Assembly: GCF_020541325.1 (NCBI RefSeq)
Contig: NZ_CP047399.1
Span: 62,001-126,000, forward strand
Length of the DNA stretch: 64,000 nucleotides
DNA from: Candidatus Vallotia laricis
GTDB taxonomy: Bacteria; Pseudomonadota; Gammaproteobacteria; Burkholderiales; Burkholderiaceae
Direction of reading: 5' to 3'
In this document: one piece after another, positions 11,531-50,040 of the stretch
Numbering within the stretch: the stretch's first letter is position 1
Layout of the letters: the number at the start of each line of letters is the position of its first letter
Position numbers and translations under genes: made by a program
The notes under the pieces: generated by a model
Told to the model about the DNA's origin: nothing
Database searches by the model: none
Seen by the model: the letters and a program-made list of their open reading frames with translations, nothing else

Positions 11531-14500
11531 ATGAAAGCTTTGCTCGATCTATTCAAGCAAGTCCAACAAGAAGAAGTTTTTGATTCCATCAAGATAGGCC
11601 TGGCCTCGCCAGATAAGATCCGGTCCTGGTCGTTTGGTGAAGTAAAAAAGCCAGAAACTATCAATTATCGCACCTTCAAGCCAGAACGCGATGGTTTATT
11701 CTGCGCGAAGATTTTTGGCCCAATCAAGGATTACGAGTGTTTATGTGGCAAGTATAAACGCTTAAAACATCGTGGTGTAATTTGCGAAAAGTGCGGTGTT
11801 GAGGTGACACTTACAAAAGTACGCCGCGAGCGTATGGGCCATATTGAGCTTGCTTCTCCGGTTGCACATATATGGTTTCTAAAATCTCTGCCGTCACGCT
11901 TGGGTATGGTGCTCGATATGACATTACGCGATATCGAGCGCGTGCTTTATTTCGAGGCATATGTCGTTATCGATCCAGGCATGACATCGCTGAAAGCGCG
12001 GCAGATTATGACCGAGGAAGATTACTATAAAGCCGAAGAAGATGGTGAAGAATTCCGAGCAGAAATGGGCGCAGAAGGTATACGTGAGTTGCTTCGAGCT
12101 ATCGATATTGACGCACAGATTGAGCAACTTCGAGCGGAGTTAAAGACCACCGGCTCGGAAGCAAAGATTAAGAAGTACGCAAAACGCCTAAAAGTGCTTG
12201 AAGCATTTCAGCGTTCCGGGATTAAGCCAGAATGGATGATTCTTGAGGTATTGCCTGTGCTGCCGCCGGAGTTACGTCCGCTAGTGCCGTTGGACGGTGG
12301 CAGGTTCGCGACGTCAGATCTAAACGACTTATATCGTCGTGTGATTAATCGTAATAATCGGTTAAAGCGTTTACTTGAACTAAAAGCACCCGAGATAATT
12401 ATTCGAAATGAAAAGAGGATGCTGCAGGAAGTAGTCGATTCGCTACTCGATAATGGACGTCGTGGTAAGGCGATGACTGGTGCTAATAAACGACCCCTAA
12501 AGTCACTTGCTGATATGATTAAAGGCAAAGGCGGCCGCTTCCGCCAGAATTTACTTGGCAAGCGTGTTGACTACTCTGGCCGTTCAGTGATTGTCGTCGG
12601 TCCAACACTTAAACTGCATCAGTGCGGCTTACCTAAGTTAATGGCACTTGAATTGTTTAAACCGTTCATTTTTAACAAGCTCGAAGTAATGGGTGTTGCG
12701 ACGACAATCAAGGCAGCAAAGAAGGAAGTTGAAAGCCAGACATCGATTGTGTGGGATATTCTTGAAGAAGTTATCCGTGAGCATCCAGTGATGCTGAACC
12801 GCGCACCAACGCTACATCGTCTAGGGATTCAAGCATTTGAGCCGGTACTAATAGAGGGAAAAGCAATCCAATTACACCCACTCGTATGCGCTGCGTTTAA
12901 TGCGGATTTTGATGGTGACCAAATGGCTGTGCATGTACCGCTTTCGCTCGAAGCACAGATGGAGGCGCGCACACTAATGCTTGCATCTAATAACATTTTG
13001 TTCCCGGCTAACGGTGATCCCTCTATCGTTCCATCACAAGATATCGTTTTGGGTTTGTACTATGCGACGCGCGAAGCAATCCATGCGAAGGGCGAAGGAA
13101 TGGTCTTTACTGGCGTAGGAGAAGTGCTTCGAGCATATGAGAATAAGACAGTAGAACTAGCGTCGCGCGTTAATGTACGGATTACCGAGAGGGTGGCTAA
13201 TGAGGATCATTCTAATGATTCGCCTAAATTCGTATCCAAGATTTCCCTATATGCTACTACCGTAGGTCGTGCGATTCTATCAGAAATTTTGCCACCTGGC
13301 CTGCCATTTAGAGTCCTAAATAAACCTTTGAAGAAGAAGGAAATCTCTAGACTAATTAATACTGCTTTCCGTTGTTGCGGCTTACGCGAAACAGTCATTT
13401 TTGCTGACCAATTAATGCAATCCGGATTTCAGCTAGCCACTCGAGCTGGAATCTCGATCTGTGTTGACGATATGCTTGTGCCAGTACAAAAGGGAGCAAT
13501 CGTCGGTGAAGCTGCTAAAAAAGTCAAGGAATATGATCGACAATATATGTCGGGATTGGTTACTGCCCAGGAGCGTTATAACAACGTAGTCGACATTTGG
13601 TCAGCAACCTCTGAGTTAGTTGGAAAAGCAATGATGCATCGACTTTCAACTGAACCAGTAATCGATAGAAATGGCAATAAAACGCATCAAGAGTCATTCA
13701 ATTCGATTTATATGATGGCAGACTCTGGTGCCCGTGGTTCAGCAGTGCAGATTCGTCAATTAGCTGGTATGCGTGGTCTTATGGCTAAGCCGGATGGCTC
13801 GATCATCGAAACGCCAATTACTGCAAATTTCCGCGAAGGCTTAAATGTGCTGCAATACTTTATCTCAACGCATGGAGCCCGTAAAGGATTGGCGGATACT
13901 GCATTAAAAACTGCGAACTCAGGCTATCTAACTCGTCGTTTAGTTGACGTAACACAAGACCTTGTAGTGGTTGAAGACGATTGCGGCACTAGCCAGAGCG
14001 TAGTAATGAAAGCTCTAATCGAAGGCGGTGAGGTTATCGAAGCGCTACGCGACCGGATTTTAGGCCGAGTAGCAATATCCGATATAGTCAATCCAGAAAT
14101 CCAGGAAACGCTATACAAATCAGGCACTTTACTAGATGAAGCTGCGGTTGAAGAAATTGAGCGCCTCGGCATTGATGAGGTGCGCGTACGTACGCCACTT
14201 ACCTGCGAAACACGCTATGGTTTATGCGCGAAATGCTATGGTCGAGATCTTGGACGCGGCGCACTGGTAAATGTAGGTGAGGCGGTAGGTGTAATCGCCG
14301 CGCAATCAATTGGCGAGCCTGGTACGCAGCTAACAATGCGCACATTCCATATCGGTGGTGCTGTATCACGATCAGCTGTAGCTTCTAGTGTTGAAGCGAA
14401 GTCTAATGGAACTGCACGCTTTACCCCAACAATGCGCTATGTTACGAACACAAAAGACGAGCAGATTGTTATTTCTCGTTCTGGAGAAATGATTATCGCA

Positions 14501-15778
14501 GATGACCACGGTCGTGAGCGTGAATGCCACAAAATTCCATATGGTGCAACGCTACTACAATTAGATGGCATGCAGATCAAAGCGGGTACACAGCTTGCGA
14601 CGTGGGATCCCATGACACGTCCGATTATTACCGAGTACGGTGGTACGGTAAAATTTGAAAATGTTGAAGAGGGAGTAACCGTCGCTAAACAGATCGATGA
14701 AGTAACCGGCCTATCGACTCTCGTTGTTATTGACTCAAAGCACTGTGGCTCTCAATCACCTAAGAATGTACGCCCACAGGTAAAGCTTCTATATGAGACC
14801 GGTGACGAAGTAAAAATTCCAGGTACAGAGCATGCGGTGCAAATTGGTTTCCAGGTCGGTGCATTAATCACTGTTAAGAATGGCCAGAAGGTGCAGATCG
14901 GTGAGGTGCTTGCGCGGATTCCAACTGAGTCGCAGAAGACTCGCGACATTACTGGCGGCTTACCCCGAGTTGCAGAGCTATTCGAGGCGCGTTCTCCAAA
15001 AGATGCGGGCTTTCTAGCAGAAGTCACCGGAACAGTATCATTCGGAAAAGATACGAAGGGAAAGCAGCGTTTAATCATCACAGACCTAGACAGAAATCAA
15101 CATGAATTTCTAATTTCTAAAGAAAAGCAAGTACTTGTACACGATGGCCAAGTTGTTAACAAGGGCGAAATGATCGTCGACGGTCCGGCAGATTCGCATG
15201 ACATACTGCGCCTGCAGGGTGTCGAGGCGCTCTCTCGCTATATCGTTGATGAAGTGCAAGACGTATATCGCTTACAGGGTGTGAAAATTAATGATAAGCA
15301 TATTGAAGTGATTGTGCGCCAAATGCTGCGACGCGTGCAAATCGTGGATAATGCTGATACTCGGTTTATCCCGGGCGAACAAGTAGAGCGTTCCGATATG
15401 CTTGACGAGAATGATCGGATTATTGCGGAAAGTAAACGGCCAGCAACTTATGAAAATGTGCTACTTGGTATTACAAAAGCGTCACTATCGACTGATTCAT
15501 TTATCTCAGCTGCATCGTTCCAGGAAACAACGCGCGTGCTGACTGAAGCAGCGATTATGGGCAAGCGCGACGATCTTCGTGGTTTAAAAGAGAATGTGAT
15601 TGTTGGTCGCTTGATTCCAGCTGGTACAGGGCTTGCATTCCACAAAGCTAGAAAGAGTAAGGAGATGGCTAATAGAGAACGTTTTCAGCAGATTAAAGAA
15701 GAGGAAGATAATTCGAGTCCATTTGACTTTACTATGCCCAAAATACCAGTCGAACAGCCGTTTTCTGAAAAAAAATAA
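11531..15778 (+). CDS. rpoC: DNA-directed RNA polymerase subunit beta'
   Basis: Catalytic subunit of RNA polymerase. The 1415-residue product matches the family length. The N-terminal zinc site CLCGKY...CEKCGVE is near residues 70-88, the catalytic Mg-binding NADFDGD is at residues 457-463, and the second zinc cluster ([15 protein letters not shown]) is in the C-terminal third, followed by [19 protein letters not shown] Shine-Dalgarno GGAGAA lies before the ATG. The lineage-typical C-terminus ends in a charged tail. It is the last gene of the operon; a long empty region follows. Confidence 0.99.
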
Positions 15779-15859
15779 TGCTCCAGCCCGCTAGTTTAGA
15801 ATTAACGATTCTAGAGAGCCAAGTTATGCACCAAATATTAGTTCGGCAATAAATTCTGC

Positions 15860-15901
15860 GTACATGTACAAGAGTGTTTTTGTGTACATGTACAAGAGTG
15901 T
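15860..15901 (+). repeat. 18-bp direct repeat pair
   Basis: The 18 bases GTACATGTACAAGAGTGT occur at 15860-15877 and again at 15884-15901, separated by six bases. Each copy contains the 10-base palindrome GTACATGTAC. It lies 80 bases after the rpoC stop in non-coding DNA and looks like a slippage product. Confidence 0.9.
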
Positions 15902-16344
15902 GTGAGATTTATTTTTATGTAAATCGACTGAAACAGTTAGCGACAAAGATTTGTATAGTTAAAAGTTTTATTTTTTTACTTTTCGCCCGATATTTAGCTT
16001 GTTTTACATTCAAAGTCTTAGATAAGAACAGCATATATGATGAAAAGCAAAGTATAAAACTGGGGTAGTTTAAGATTTCTAGTCGACTAAATACTCATAA
16101 AATTTATGAGAGTATCTTCTAGAGTATGTCTTATTACCACTTTTCTTAAATTATTTGAATGCATGTGCTTAGTGCAGTAGCAGAATAGTTCATCGCATAA
16201 CTGACTTTTAGTGCAGGTAACTCTGCTAAGCAGCATAGAATTACGACTTACTTGAGGTTATAAAACCTATAAATAAGACAAGAAACTTTAATATCAATAG
16301 TAACACTGTTGTGCAATATCTCCATCAGCACAGACAGATAGGCT

Positions 16345-16362
16345 ACCATTCATATGAATGGT
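16345..16362. repeat. 18-bp perfect palindrome
   Basis: ACCATTCATATGAATGGT is self-complementary over its full length. It lies 67 bases before a much longer palindrome in the same gene-free region. No neighbouring gene explains it as an operator. Confidence 0.85.
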
Positions 16363-16429
16363 TTGGTAGAAAATTGGATATACTAATTTTGTAATGTTAA
16401 AAACTAAATTTTTGTCCCCCGAAGAACCA

Positions 16430-16479
16430 AAATACCTTCTGCTTCATAGAGTAATTACTCTATGAAGCAGAAGGTATTT
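16430..16479. repeat. 50-bp perfect palindrome (25 bp arms, no spacer)
   Basis: Arms at 16430-16454 and 16455-16479 are exact reverse complements (the left arm begins AAATACCTTCTGCTTCATAG and ends AGAGTAA). There is no unpaired spacer, so as RNA it would form a very stable hairpin and as DNA a cruciform. It is not followed by a clear T-run, although the arm ends in TTT. It lies about 650 bases after rpoC and may act as a bidirectional terminator; that is inference. Confidence 0.92.
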
Positions 16480-18276
16480 CATCATAAATCTTCTAATGAA
16501 GCGCCGATTAACTTACAAAAGTAGTAATAAGTTATTATAGATAATGCTAATCAAATAATTAAAGTGCCTATCATTTACAATGAAGAGTTATATGCAGCTC
16601 TTCAACTCTTCAATAAAGTACAAGCAAAACACGAGACGTTTTTAAACTGCTACCACTGCTTCTGTTGCGGGTAAGGAAAAAAGATAGACCGATGAGCTAG
16701 TAATACTAAAGACTAGGGCGGATTGTTAACAGCGAACTTCATAGAACTGCTCACGAGAAGTCAGTAAAGTTATTTGCAATTAGTAAAGCTTCTGTATATC
16801 TCAGTAAGGCTATGTTTACGGTGCAAGTACATGTGTATGCATATATATTGCAATATTATCGTGCATTTCTAGAATGTACGCTGCATTGTCCAGACCTCCA
16901 TATCAAGGACGCGTTTGCACGAGAATAATCATCAAGTGGCTATTGCACTAAACAACGTACCAAACAATATTCGAGTATTTTTTCCGAATTTTAATTGATC
17001 GAACATTGATTACCAAATCGTTGAGAAAAATAATGCGTATATACAAATTATACTTTACTCACGCTTAGTCTGCTAACGCAGACAGCGCTGTTGATTCGCG
17101 TATTATGTATTGCGCCTATCTCCCCGGAAAAATGAATAATTAGCTAATTTAGTGGGGAATACAGGCGTCACCCTGCTAGTAACTCGGCTTTGTTAACAGA
17201 GAGCGGGCATTATAAATATATCAACATTCCCTTTAGAATAAAACTTAGTAAACTAAGCACGCATTTTATCCCGCATCTCTTCCTAAGAGTATTAAGACTT
17301 TCTTAGAAAACTAGCGGCTGCTAATAATAACCTTTCCTTGAATACATATATATTCCGCTGTCTAAACGATGTTATGCAGCGGAGCTGAATGATTCGTGAG
17401 TCTATGTATGGCTAACGAATTACATAGTCAAGTATAGGCAGAAAGCTTGAGATGTGTTGCATGTATTGTGCAGACACTAAATATCAATGTGTACAGAGCT
17501 GCTTAGCCACTTAGATAGATAGCTAACCTGCTCGTATCTAGCCAAAACCCCCTAATAACACAAGCGCAGCATTGAAATAATCCCGTTAGTATACCGCGCA
17601 CATCGGGCTAGTAGATTTGATTTGGGAGCACTTAATCGATATATTATAAGGTAATAATCTCATAGATTAAGCGCTAGGAGGATCTAATTCCATGAGAACT
17701 TTTAGTATTATTAACTTCTTGTTAGGGGTGTAATAGCAATAAATTCATAAATTCATCGATGTCCCTCTTTCCAGATATTACAAGTCTATGGAGAACCACT
17801 TCTTACAGAACCAAGTAAAATTAGCACTAATGGGAGTGTAGTGTTACGATTCGTCAATATACTGTATCTAAGTAAAGTAAAGATAAATATCCGTACATAT
17901 CATAGTAAGCGTACGGCCTAGACATAGCCCGCAGAGTATCGCCGTCCCGGCGTATGTTCTGAGATTAATTAGCGGCTTTTATATATCAATATAATTACAC
18001 GATACGGTATAAGATAGCATATCGTTAGTACATATATTTTAGTCACTACCACTCAAGAGTAAATAATATATAATAGCACTGGCTATGTTGGTGACGCGAG
18101 AAAATTCCGAAATCTATTGACGTACCTAAAAAGTCTAGAATAAAATAGCGGGTTATTCTATCGGCGAAGCTGCGCGAACATTACTAGCCACTTATTCAAT
18201 ATCTAAGCCGGCTGATTTTCAGCATACTGCTGCCCGGGCCAGCGTTATCCGGTTTTGACCACTTCCAGGAATCATG

Positions 18277-18657
18277 ATGCCAACCATCAATCAATTGGTT
18301 CGCAAAGGCCGCGCTTCGGAGCATACGAAGAGTAAAAGTCCTGCATTACAAGACTGTCCGCAGCGCCGCGGTGTATGTACTCGTGTGTACACGACAACGC
18401 CAAAGAAACCGAACTCAGCACTTCGTAAAGTCGCAAAGATTCGTTTGACAAACGGCTTCGAGGTTATCTCATATATTGGTGGTGAAGGCCATAACCTACA
18501 GGAGCACTCAGTTGTGCTAATTCGTGGCGGCCGAGTTAAAGATCTTCCGGGCGTACGTTACCACACAGTGCGCGGGTCCCTAGATACCCAGGGAGTCAAG
18601 AACCGTAAGCAAGCGCGCTCAAAATACGGCGCAAAGCGCGCTATTACAGGTAAGTAA
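18277..18657 (+). CDS. rpsL: 30S ribosomal protein S12
   Basis: S12 sits at the decoding centre and is the streptomycin target. The start is the second of two adjacent ATGs, giving the conserved [12 protein letters not shown] and 126 residues; the first ATG would only add one methionine. An AGGA lies 6 bases upstream of that second ATG. The decoding-site loops [13 protein letters not shown] and [13 protein letters not shown] keep the usual lysines of streptomycin-sensitive strains. It opens the str operon with rpsG, fusA and tuf. Confidence 0.97.
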
Positions 18658-18820
18658 GTAATATTTCTGCCAATGTATGGGCGATAATACTAAAATTAGT
18701 CGGCCCTATCGAGTAAGCGCTTAGATGATTAATATAGTTAATCGTAAGATGGATCGAGATTTAGTAGATAGCCTCGAGAGAAAAGAAAAACCGATTCAAT
18801 CGAATAGTTAAAGGAAAAAA

Positions 18821-19291
18821 ATGCCGCGTCGTCGCGAAGTTCCTAAGCGGGAAATATTGCCAGATCCAAAATTCGGTAATGTTGATGTTGCAAAATTCAT
18901 GAATGTATTGATGCTTTCAGGTAAAAAATCAGTCGCCGAGCGCATCGTATACGGGGCTTTTGAGCAAATACAGGGAAGAGGTGGGAAAGACCCACTAGAG
19001 GTGTTTACAGTCGCACTGAGCAACGTGAAGCCGGTAGTCGAAGTGAAGAGTCGTCGTGTGGGCGGAGCGAACTATCAGGTTCCAGTTGAAGTTCGGCCAT
19101 CACGTCGTATGGCATTATCAATGCGTTGGTTGCGCGAGGCTGCGAAGAAACGTAGTGAGAAGTCTATGGCGCTGCGTCTAGCGGGTGAATTACTAGAAGC
19201 TGTAGAAGGTCGAGGGGGTGCTATGAAGAAGCGTGATGAAGTACACAGAATGGCGGAGGCAAATAGAGCTTTCTCCCATTTCCGTTTCTAA
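18821..19291 (+). CDS. rpsG: 30S ribosomal protein S7
   Basis: Primary assembly protein of the 30S head and a neighbour of the mRNA exit channel. The product has the standard 156 residues, with the N-terminal [19 protein letters not shown] and the C-terminal [20 protein letters not shown] typical of proteobacteria. A clear AAGGAAA precedes the ATG. It is 163 bases after rpsL and is followed by a hairpin before fusA. Confidence 0.98.
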
Positions 19292-19330
19292 TAGCCATTA
19301 GTCTGGCGATCCGTAATAAACGAAAAATTT

Positions 19331-19368
19331 CGGGCGGGTGCGCTTACGAAGCGCCTCGCCCGTTTATA
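19331..19368 (+). terminator. hairpin between rpsG and fusA, possible attenuator
   Basis: CGGGCG at 19331-19336 pairs with CGCCCG at 19357-19362; an inner GCGCTT/AAGCGC stem closes a three-base loop, and two further pairs with a bulged T connect the stems. The hairpin is followed by TTTATATT. GC-rich stem plus T-rich tail suggests partial termination within the str operon. Confidence 0.6.
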
Positions 19369-19418
19369 TTAAGGCGCATCGCGATTTTCCCGCTGCGCAA
19401 TCCTCTTGAGAGATTAAA

Positions 19419-21521
19419 GTGGCTCGTAAGACTCCTATCGAGCGTTACCGTAATATTGGTATTAGTGCTCATATTGACGCCGGCAAAACCACGACAACAG
19501 AGCGTATCTTATTTTACACTGGTGTAAATCACAAGATCGGCGAAGTACATGATGGTGCTGCGACGATGGACTGGATGGAGCAAGAGCAGGAACGTGGTAT
19601 TACAATTACGTCCGCTGCGACGACAGCTTTCTGGAAAGGCATGGGTAATAACTACCCAGAACATCGCATCAACATTATCGATACGCCAGGTCACGTAGAT
19701 TTTACGATTGAGGTCGAGCGCTCAATGCGCGTGCTCGATGGAGCATGCATGGTGTACTGCGCCGTTGGTGGCGTTCAGCCGCAGTCCGAAACGGTATGGC
19801 GGCAAGCTAACAAATACAAGGTACCTCGGCTTGCATTTGTTAACAAAATGGACCGTACTGGCGCAAACTTTTTTAAGGTATATGATCAGCTAAAGGCACG
19901 CCTAAAAGCTAATCCAGTACCGATTGTAGTACCGATTGGTGCAGAAGAGTCGTTTAAGGGTGTTGTGGACCTGTTGAAAATGAAGGCGATTATTTGGGAG
20001 GATATTTCGCAAGGAACGAAGTTCGAATATGTTGATATTCCAGCAGAACTCTTAGATATGTGTCAAAAGTGGCGTGAGAAAATAATTGAGTCGGCAGCTG
20101 AAGCCAGTGAGACACTTATGGAAAAGTATCTTAGTGGAGAAACATTAAGCGAACCTGAGATCGTTAAAGCGTTACGAGATCGCACGATTGCCTGTGAAAT
20201 TCAACCAATGTTGTGTGGAACCGCATTTAAGAATAAGGGTGTGCAACGCATGCTAGACGCGGTGATTGACTTCCTACCATCGCCAATCGATATTCCGCCG
20301 GTTACGGGAGAGATGGAGGGTGGTGGGGGTATACAACGTAAGGCATCCGATGACGAAAAATTCTCAGCACTTGCATTCAAAATTATGACAGACCCGTTTG
20401 TGGGTCAATTGATTTTTTTCCGCGTGTATTCAGGTGTAGTAAATTCCGGCGATATAGTGCTAAATTCGACGAAGGGCAAGAAAGAGCGTATCGGACGGAT
20501 TCTGCAGATGCATGCGAATCAGCGCGAGGAAATTAAAGAAGTGCGCGCTGGAGACATTGCCGCCGCGGTCGGCCTAAAGGAAGTGACAACTGGTGACACA
20601 CTATGTGCTCTAGTCAACCCAATTGTGCTTGAACGTATGTTATTCCCAGAGCCTGTTATCTCGCAAGCCGTCGAACCAAAGACAAGAGCCGACCAGGAAA
20701 AAATGAGTATTGCACTAAACCGCCTAGCGCAAGAAGACCCATCGTTTCGTGTACATACTGACGAAGAATCTGGCCAGACAATTATCTCAGGTATGGGAGA
20801 GTTGCATCTAGAAATTCTAGTCGATAGAATGAGGCGCGAATTCAACGTCGCAGCGACAGTCGGTAAGCCGCAGGTTGCTTACCGTGAAACAATTCGAAGC
20901 TCAGCAATCGATATTGAAGGAAAGTTTATTAAGCAATCTGGCGGCCGAGGTCAATATGGTCATGTGGTAATCAAGCTAGAGCCTAATGAACAGGGAAAGG
21001 GCTATGAATTTCTTGATGAGATAAAAGGTGGTGTGATTCCGCGTGAGTACATCCCTGCAGTTGATAAAGGTATTCAAGAAACTCTGAAAAGCGGCGTGCT
21101 TGCTGGTTTTCCGGTAGTCGATGTAACGGTACACTTAACGTTCGGTTCGTATCATGATGTAGATTCAAATGAAAACGCATTTCGGATAGCCGGATCGATG
21201 GCGTTTAAGGAAGCTATGCGTCGGGCGAGTCCCGTAATTCTTGAGCCAATGATGGCTGTCGAAGTTGAGACACCAGAAGAGTATATGGGCAATGTAATGG
21301 GTGATCTATCCGGCCGCCGCGGTATCGTGCAAGGCATGGAAGATATGACTGGCGGCGGTAAGATTGTCCGTGCTGAGGTGCCTATGTCTGAAATGTTTGG
21401 ATACTCCACGTCGCTGCGCTCGCTGACACAAGGCCGCGCAACGTATACGATGGAGTTCAAACATTATTCCGAGGCCCCAAGAAATGTGGCTGATGCAATT
21501 ATTAATGCAAAAGCGAAATAA
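19419..21521 (+). CDS. fusA: elongation factor G
   Basis: GTPase that drives ribosomal translocation. The 700-residue product has the full five-domain length. G1 [13 protein letters not shown] is at residues 17-29, G3 DTPGHVDF and G4 NKMD follow, and domain IV/V motifs GGRGQYGHV and [20 protein letters not shown] are intact. The start codon is GTG, supported by the conserved N-terminus [19 protein letters not shown] and a GAGAG upstream. It is followed after 42 bases by tuf copy 2. Confidence 0.98.
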
Positions 21522-28135: not shown

Positions 28136-28176
28136 TGTAACAAATAATTATTGCAAAACTATAATTATTTGTTACA
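28136..28176 (+). terminator. 16-bp hairpin after rpsQ, possible S10 operon terminator
   Basis: Arms 28136-28151 and 28161-28176 (TGTAACAAATAATTAT and its exact complement) enclose a 9-base loop. The stem is AT-rich and lacks a T-run, so termination is not certain. A further 16-base palindrome (TTACTTAATTAAGTAA, 28102-28117) spans the rpsQ stop just before it. Confidence 0.45.
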
Positions 28177-49240: not shown

Positions 49241-50040
49241 ATGAGCAATTTTCTCCTGGAAGGGCGAGAGGTTTTTTATCCGACTTCAGATAAACTACTG
49301 CAGACAGCAGATCAAATCCGATCAAGCTTGGGTGATTGGCCTCGAGTACGTCATCCTATGCGTATTTGTTTTATTCCACCGCTGTTTTCAATCAGAAATC
49401 ACGATGTAATCGTAATGACTGATACGCGGCCGAGTTCGGCCGATACAGCGTGCTGGGTAGCTTCTGGGGCTACAGGTGCTAGATGCGTCGGCGCGTACTA
49501 TTGTACGATTATATCAAGGCGATACGATTTGTATATTGGAAGCGTCGCGATGCGACGACTGGATTTCGGCATTCGCCTCATTTATCGATTGTGGCTACGA
49601 GCCACATGATGCCCGTGTCTTGCTCTAGCTTGAAGGTCGGGCGATGAGCATGCTCTAGATCCGTGGCTAACTGACCTGTCTCGTTTTCCGCGCGTTTTAG
49701 AGTTGCCAAATGCTCCGAACAGGCCATTCGCTGAGTGCCCGATGGCACTTGGTTTATATCCTGTGGTACCTACGGCAGACTGGATCAAGCGACTTTTATC
49801 ACTAGGAGTATGTATAGTGCAACTACGTCGCAAGGTTGATATAGAGGATGCAAGGTTGATATAGAGGATCCGCGTAATTTAGCTGGCCTGCAGGTCGATG
49901 TGCGCCGGGCTGTTACAGTCGGTCGGAGCTATAAAAATGCGTGCGTGTTTATTAATGATTACTGGAAACTAGCCTAAAAAGAATACGCATATGGCGTACA
50001 TCTAGGCCAGGAAGATTTATGTGGCTTAGACATTATACCG
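49241..50040 (+). pseudogene. thiE: thiE pseudogene (thiamine phosphate synthase)
   Basis: The N-terminal region of the long Burkholderia-type ThiE is readable (FYPTSDKLLQTADQIRSSLGDWP, HPMRICFIPP), then a frameshift near 49560 leads to WISAFASFIDCGYEPHDARVLL and a stop. Later pieces include MALGLYPVVPTADWIKRLL and VHLGQEDLCGLD near the end. A 20-base tandem duplication at 49830-49869 causes one further frameshift. The gene ends without a recognisable C-terminus. Confidence 0.88.
49830..49869 (+). repeat. 20-bp tandem duplication inside the thiE remnant
   Basis: GCAAGGTTGATATAGAGGAT occurs twice without a spacer (49830-49849, 49850-49869). Its length is not a multiple of three, so the duplication shifts the frame. 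Confidence 0.95.

Follow-up and report, generated by a model that had tools for sequence, protein, structure and literature searches.

What placed a 50-bp perfect palindrome without a spacer in gene-free DNA of a reduced insect-symbiont genome, and what keeps its two halves complementary? We examined positions 16430-16479 of the window, by which we mean the whole 64,000-nucleotide stretch of Candidatus Vallotia laricis DNA that was analysed. A repeat search of the window confirmed the structure as originally described: the two arms of 25 nt are 100% complementary, with 0 mismatches and 0 nt between them. The setting was likewise borne out, as the palindrome starts 652 nt past the rpoC stop, where no gene is recognised, and a recQ remnant follows further downstream. 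The name rpoC comes from the initial reading of the sequence and from gene order (rpsL, rpsG, fusA, tuf), not from a family search. The features of the locus are as follows.

11531-15778, plus strand: rpoC, the upstream gene, an ORF of 1415 aa
16430-16454, plus strand: left arm of the perfect palindrome (repeat search), a single locus in its own genome
16455-16479, plus strand: right arm (repeat search), the exact reverse complement of the left arm, with a spacer of 0 nt
16723-17709, plus strand: decayed recQ remnant, downstream (tblastn with the RecQ of G007, a relative with a larger genome)
18274-18657, plus strand: rpsL, the first intact gene downstream (ORF), present in 8 of 8 genus genomes

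Both the palindrome and the recQ remnant thus lie in a gap of about 2.5 kb between rpoC and rpsL. Within the remnant, tblastn gave a firm match at 16723-17064 (E 2e-7) and weak pieces within 17580-17709 (E 0.05), and a recQ family search of the genome returned no match above the cut-off. The lost 5′ end of recQ may once have extended to the palindrome. The gap also holds a direct repeat, GTACATGTACAAGAGTGT, at 15860-15877 and 15884-15901, with starts 24 nt apart and a self-complementary core, GTACATGTAC. Elsewhere in the window, a 20-nt unit is exactly duplicated in tandem at 49830-49869.

The palindrome occupies one locus in the whole of its own genome (G000; two contigs of 1,064,389 and 61,393 bases, 1,125,782 in total). 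Within the window, a search allowing up to 3 mismatches returned only the site itself, and 100 shuffles returned 0 matches. When the 2495-base rpoC-rpsL gap was used as a query against 41 genomes, the palindrome was matched in its own genome only, and no similar palindrome was found in the seven genus mates. With up to 3 mismatches allowed, the arm's inner 19 nt were absent from six of these seven; the seventh, G005, carried one match with 3 mismatches, to a single arm and at another location. The search of the whole genome and related symbionts for the arm sequence, put forward with the original prediction, ended at a single locus, with the palindrome present in 0 of 7 genus mates. A scan of GTDB contigs, which may omit the window's own genome, gave 0 matches to the exact arm. 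The sole match to a known RNA family was a microRNA, at 27.8 bits against a gathering score of 72 bits (E 0.013), and was rejected; we attribute it to chance, the query being a perfect hairpin.

By a simple estimate that sets the pairing probability at 0.26, about 3e-9 spacer-less palindromes with 25-nt arms are expected in 1.13 Mb. The claim that arms of 25 bases are rare thus holds against chance, but long perfect inverted repeats are common within this genome. We counted perfect inverted repeats with arms of 14 nt or more and loops no longer than 20 nt in a 456-kb sample, consisting of the window, which had been selected for its palindrome, and 20 stretches spaced over the genome. The sample contained 52 such repeats, three of them inside the window, whereas the mean of three second-order Markov sequences was 0.0. 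Ten of the 52 have no spacer, and no pair among them shares a 12-mer. The palindrome, with its 25-nt arms and spacer of 0 nt, agrees with this class both in being perfect with a short or absent spacer and, by a criterion set in the present analysis, in belonging to no sequence family, each repeat being different. It is nothing special in its own genome, but one among numerous unrelated perfect palindromes. The longest repeat of the sample, L037:14939-15014, has 30-nt arms; its loop contains a run of ten C, and runs of C and of G also occur in the rpoC-rpsL gap of V. tarda (L020). Lowering the threshold to arms of at least 12 nt gave 82 repeats, of which 67 were non-coding, 14 lay wholly in ORFs and one lay at an edge, as judged with a rough mask of ORFs of at least 120 aa. 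Two further repeats of the window were compared with V. tarda.

1557-1607, no strand assigned: perfect inverted repeat with 21-nt arms and a 9-nt loop (repeat search; V. tarda comparison)
28136-28176, no strand assigned: perfect inverted repeat with 16-nt arms and a 9-nt loop, 11 of whose 16 pairs form in V. tarda

V. tarda also pairs well at the place corresponding to 1557-1607, but in a stem whose sequence differs, so this repeat could be a real terminator with paired arm changes. Some repeats, namely this one and L038:10940-10978, may thus be real terminators whose pairing has been kept. The stem at 1557-1607 sits upstream of three tRNA genes (1810-2094). For the class as a whole, a T-tract (at least 5 T in the 8 bases after either arm) accompanied 8 of the 52 repeats and 25 of 207 displaced places, which is background; on this ground and on that of position, terminators were rejected as the explanation of the class.

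We compared repeat density across relatives. V. tarda (G003) had 37 repeats with arms of at least 14 nt in 392 kb, against 0.7 in its Markov control, and G007 had three in 400 kb. Expressed per 100 kb, the densities were 11.4 in G000, 9.4 in V. tarda, which may be biased since its stretches were aimed at matching places, and 7.0 in G005 (590 kb), followed by 2.9 in G002 (206 kb), 0.8 in G007 (400 kb) and 0.5 in G004 (206 kb). At arms of at least 10 nt, G007 had 51 repeats against a Markov count of 11.3; larger-genome relatives are thus above chance at shorter arms, and the process is therefore not peculiar to the G000 lineage. G016 (L171-L174), another reduced symbiont and probably Ca. Pandoraea novymonadis, showed a density similar to that of G000, with 10 repeats with arms of at least 14 nt in only 80 kb, or 12.5 per 100 kb. 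Thin controls gave 0 repeats in 40 kb of G010 and one in 50 kb of E. coli at arms of at least 12 nt, and one in G018 and 0 in G024 at arms of at least 14 nt, in 120 kb each. The very AT-rich genomes G012 and G020, with 23 and 2 repeats with arms of at least 14 nt in 80 kb each against Markov counts of 1.7 and 0.3, were kept out of the argument, G012 being likewise above its own control. A published inverted-repeat survey (PMC10434271) counts endosymbionts as 28 of the 200 bacteria with the top inverted-repeat frequencies, a count that in our reading is partly driven by base composition.

Four repeats that lie inside genes were compared over the genus, and all four genes are open frames in G000. 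Summed over the four loci, 52 of 86 arm positions pair in the relatives' consensus and 86 of 86 in G000; all four had been picked as perfect in G000, which tilts such comparisons towards improvement in this genome. At three of the loci, the changes unique to G000 fall in one arm, or nearly so, and make it complement the other. The right arm of L047:9418-9460, in an exchanger-like gene (Pfam) on the plasmid, reads CCG CAR GCN CAY in 7 of 7 relatives but CCG ACA GCG GAT in G000, complementary to the left arm, with one unique site on the left and three on the right. In L042:15891-15941, within a phosphoglucomutase/phosphomannomutase-like gene, the unique sites number three on the left and 0 on the right. 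A RecD-like helicase gene, likewise on the plasmid, holds L046:7229-7292, where G000 is unique at 9 of 29 sites in the left arm and at 0 of 29 in the right; the aligned stretch is unchanged in length, and at one residue G000 has C against L or V in 7 of 7 relatives. This 29-nt-arm repeat lies near the start of the helicase gene (L046:7177-9396) and alters its N-terminus.

The fourth locus, L037:8991-9039 in a YceG/MltG-like gene, is imperfect in all six relatives in which it was found, with 15 to 20 of 22 pairs, and G005 gave no match. Compared with V. tarda, both sides of this repeat differ at 5 of 22 pairs; V. tarda itself forms 17 of 22, which does not exceed the range of the larger-genome relatives (15 to 18). 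Of the 44 arm sites at this locus, just 2 are unique to G000 (left 0, right 2). By a strict count over the four loci, unique sites make up 18 of 172 arm positions and 51 of 720 flank positions, a difference that is not significant (Fisher p 0.15). The apparent signal is one-sidedness together with seemingly copied sequence, in repeats that had been selected for perfection. In a wider comparison with V. tarda, 18 of 64 repeats with arms of at least 13 nt aligned through, and the paired fraction in V. tarda was 0.68 at coding and 0.51 at non-coding sites, against 0.26-0.27 when slid. Such partial pairing is as expected if perfect repeats grow out of imperfect ones; older perfect repeats decaying in V. 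tarda would give a similar picture.

We consider it probable that template switching in replication (quasipalindrome correction, or sequence-directed mutagenesis) produced the palindrome. The process would start from a short imperfect inverted repeat within decaying DNA. Folding back on itself, or switching to the opposite strand, the growing strand would use one arm as the template for the other, which would leave a perfect inverted repeat, and mismatches that arise later could be wiped out by repeated switching. We infer this mechanism for the class, and by analogy the palindrome at 16430-16479 would have arisen in the same manner; the argument is one of analogy because the flanks are too decayed for an ancestor to be read, the rpoC-recQ gap aligning with V. 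tarda at a score of 127 against a shuffled median of 139, that is, not above shuffles. The original prediction held that the palindrome is either very young or maintained. With a chance expectation near zero, this is sound in form, but the functions suggested as maintainers found no support. As renewed switching can undo later mismatches, no selected function is required to explain the symmetry, and maintenance is most likely mutational.

Template switching of this kind is already known, and the palindrome would be a further case. Quasipalindrome template-switch mutation has been described with E. coli lacZ reporters (PMC7202029), in which, as proposed here, an imperfect inverted repeat becomes perfect through arm copying in replication; those reporters were designed, whereas the endosymbiont offers natural products, inferred from 52 repeats in 456 kb. 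An excess of small inverted repeats in prokaryotes was attributed to sequence-directed mutagenesis by Ladoukakis and Eyre-Walker (cited in PMC4060949). There too, inverted repeats occur in coding DNA and the same cause is proposed, although those arms measure 6-9 bp in coding sequence and arms in G000 reach 30 nt. Nematomorpha mitochondria carry many perfect inverted repeats within genes, for which arm conversion and template switching are discussed (PMC6649704); those palindromes are mitochondrial, coding and up to 284 bp long, whereas those of G000 are bacterial, shorter and mostly non-coding. RNA hairpins formed by template switching resemble our case in that perfect stems arise in one event and pairing is retained through later switches (PMC8794818), but they belong to RNA genes (rRNA, microRNA), whereas the G000 repeats are mostly DNA without known function. 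Within the literature collection searched, we found no paper on Vallotia and inverted repeats, on endosymbiont genomes and quasipalindromes, or on quasipalindromes and exonuclease VII.

A variant inside this explanation, whose odds are counted within it and not beside it, is that one switch wrote a reverse-complement copy beside an unrelated 25-mer, with no prior imperfect repeat. We regard this as possible, though doubtful. The missing spacer agrees with it, such events are described (PMC8794818), and the right arm of L041:13640-13673 has no counterpart in V. tarda, where a loss would look the same; the relatives, however, hold imperfect repeats at the four coding loci. The palindrome itself is compatible with either path, correction of an imperfect repeat or a one-step inverted copy.

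The palindrome could instead be a selected RNA hairpin. It would then either stabilise an mRNA or serve, between rpoC and recQ, as an intrinsic terminator, bidirectional or on the minus strand. Folding predicts a hairpin with a 23-bp stem and a 4-nt loop, at -24.7 kcal/mol as DNA and -38.1 kcal/mol as RNA (16410-16499), and the predicted RNA stem is very stable (z -10.3). The minus strand, and only that strand, shows a terminator-like pattern, with a tail, TTTTGGTTCTT, that passes a lax terminator scan; of the 20 pairs counted, no more than 7 or 8 are G-C, and the plus-strand tail is CATCATAAA, so that a GC-rich stem with an immediate U-tract is seen on neither strand. Nor does the palindrome directly follow a gene on the same strand, as rpoC ends 652 nt away and no minus-strand ORF of at least 60 aa lies between rpoC and rpsL; in G005, by comparison, a stem with 12-nt arms is close after rpoC (L022:1190-1218). 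The downstream recQ is a wreck, G002, which kept recQ, has no stem with arms above 9 nt in the region (L021), and T-tracts in the class are at background. V. tarda does have its own hairpin with T/A runs in the corresponding gap (L020:4324-4365), but the 7-mer CATAGAG that it has in common with the palindrome was equalled in 1097 of 20000 shuffles, and orthology of the two is unsupported, the gap alignment being not above shuffles. We therefore judge a selected hairpin quite unlikely, and the bidirectional terminator suggested at the outset is not upheld. The suggested replication signal fared no better: GC skew was 0.111, 0.001 and 0.115 over 14001-16000, 16001-18000 and 18001-20000, and a signal of an origin or terminus found no support, as the sign does not change at the palindrome.

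Fold-back artefacts are known in single-molecule reads, and a chimera of this kind from sequencing or assembly could account for the palindrome. The same repeat excess nevertheless appears in the separate assemblies of V. tarda, G005 and G016, the first and last of which come from different groups and methods (PMC8692619, PMC5632650), and the repeats of the four compared genes sit in open frames; we hold an artefact to be very improbable. That the palindrome belongs to a dispersed element of the REP, MITE or a similar type is scarcely credible. Short palindromic elements of such size do occur in some bacteria (PMC3733652), yet the palindrome is a single locus rather than a multiple-copy family, the 52 repeats share no 12-mers, and the GTDB scan described above gave no match to the exact arm. 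Template switching thus remains our preferred reading.

Furthermore, we considered whether quasipalindrome template switching is set free when the RecQ helicase is lost in genome reduction, so that perfect repeats fill the reduced genomes of symbionts; as a cause, we rate this as unlikely. Were it true, the palindrome would adjoin the wreck of the very gene whose loss permitted it. A recQ above the family cut-off was found in G002, where the match spans positions 3-509 of 591, and in four larger-genome relatives (G001, G004, G006, G007), and recQ is broken in G000, V. tarda and G005. Non-coding repeats with arms of at least 12 nt number 24-35 per 100 kb in the broken-recQ genomes, against 12.3 in G002, 9.0 in G007 and 8.6 in G004. 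Pooled, the three broken-recQ genomes have 170 in 572 kb of non-coding DNA against 8 in 65 kb in G002 (p 0.009), with 9 in 102 kb in G004 and G007 together. In coding DNA, the corresponding counts, 40 in 866 kb and 2 in 141 kb, do not differ significantly (p 0.115), and G005 against G002 alone gave p 0.09 for non-coding and 0.18 for coding DNA. Repeats are commoner in three broken-recQ genomes than in one recQ-keeping symbiont, a correlation over four symbionts that is suggestive only. At the recQ position between rpoC and rpsL (L020, L021, L022 and window 16723-17709), repeat density tracks the intact or decayed state of the gene.

A small tree built from parts of rpoC, rpsL and rpsG pairs G000 with V. 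tarda and sets G002 between this pair and G005, so recQ would have been lost at least twice. The recQ reading is confounded, as the genomes differ in many further respects and V. tarda reportedly also carries pseudogenes of recG, mutL, mutS and uvr genes (PMC8692619). Our own search of repair genes covered recQ, xseA, recJ and sbcD. Loss of exonuclease VII, RecJ or SbcD was rejected as a cause, as none separates the lineages: xseA and recJ pass the cut-off throughout the genus (8 of 8 genomes), and sbcD was found in none of the eight.

Collectively, our findings suggest that perfect symmetry, however striking, need not mark a signal, as in decaying symbiont DNA the mutation process itself can create and renew it. 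In such DNA, hairpins would therefore offer little evidence of function, and so would paired changes in their arms. Relatives that differ in repair genes, such as those with an intact and those with a broken recQ, could make the cause of template switching testable in natural lineages.
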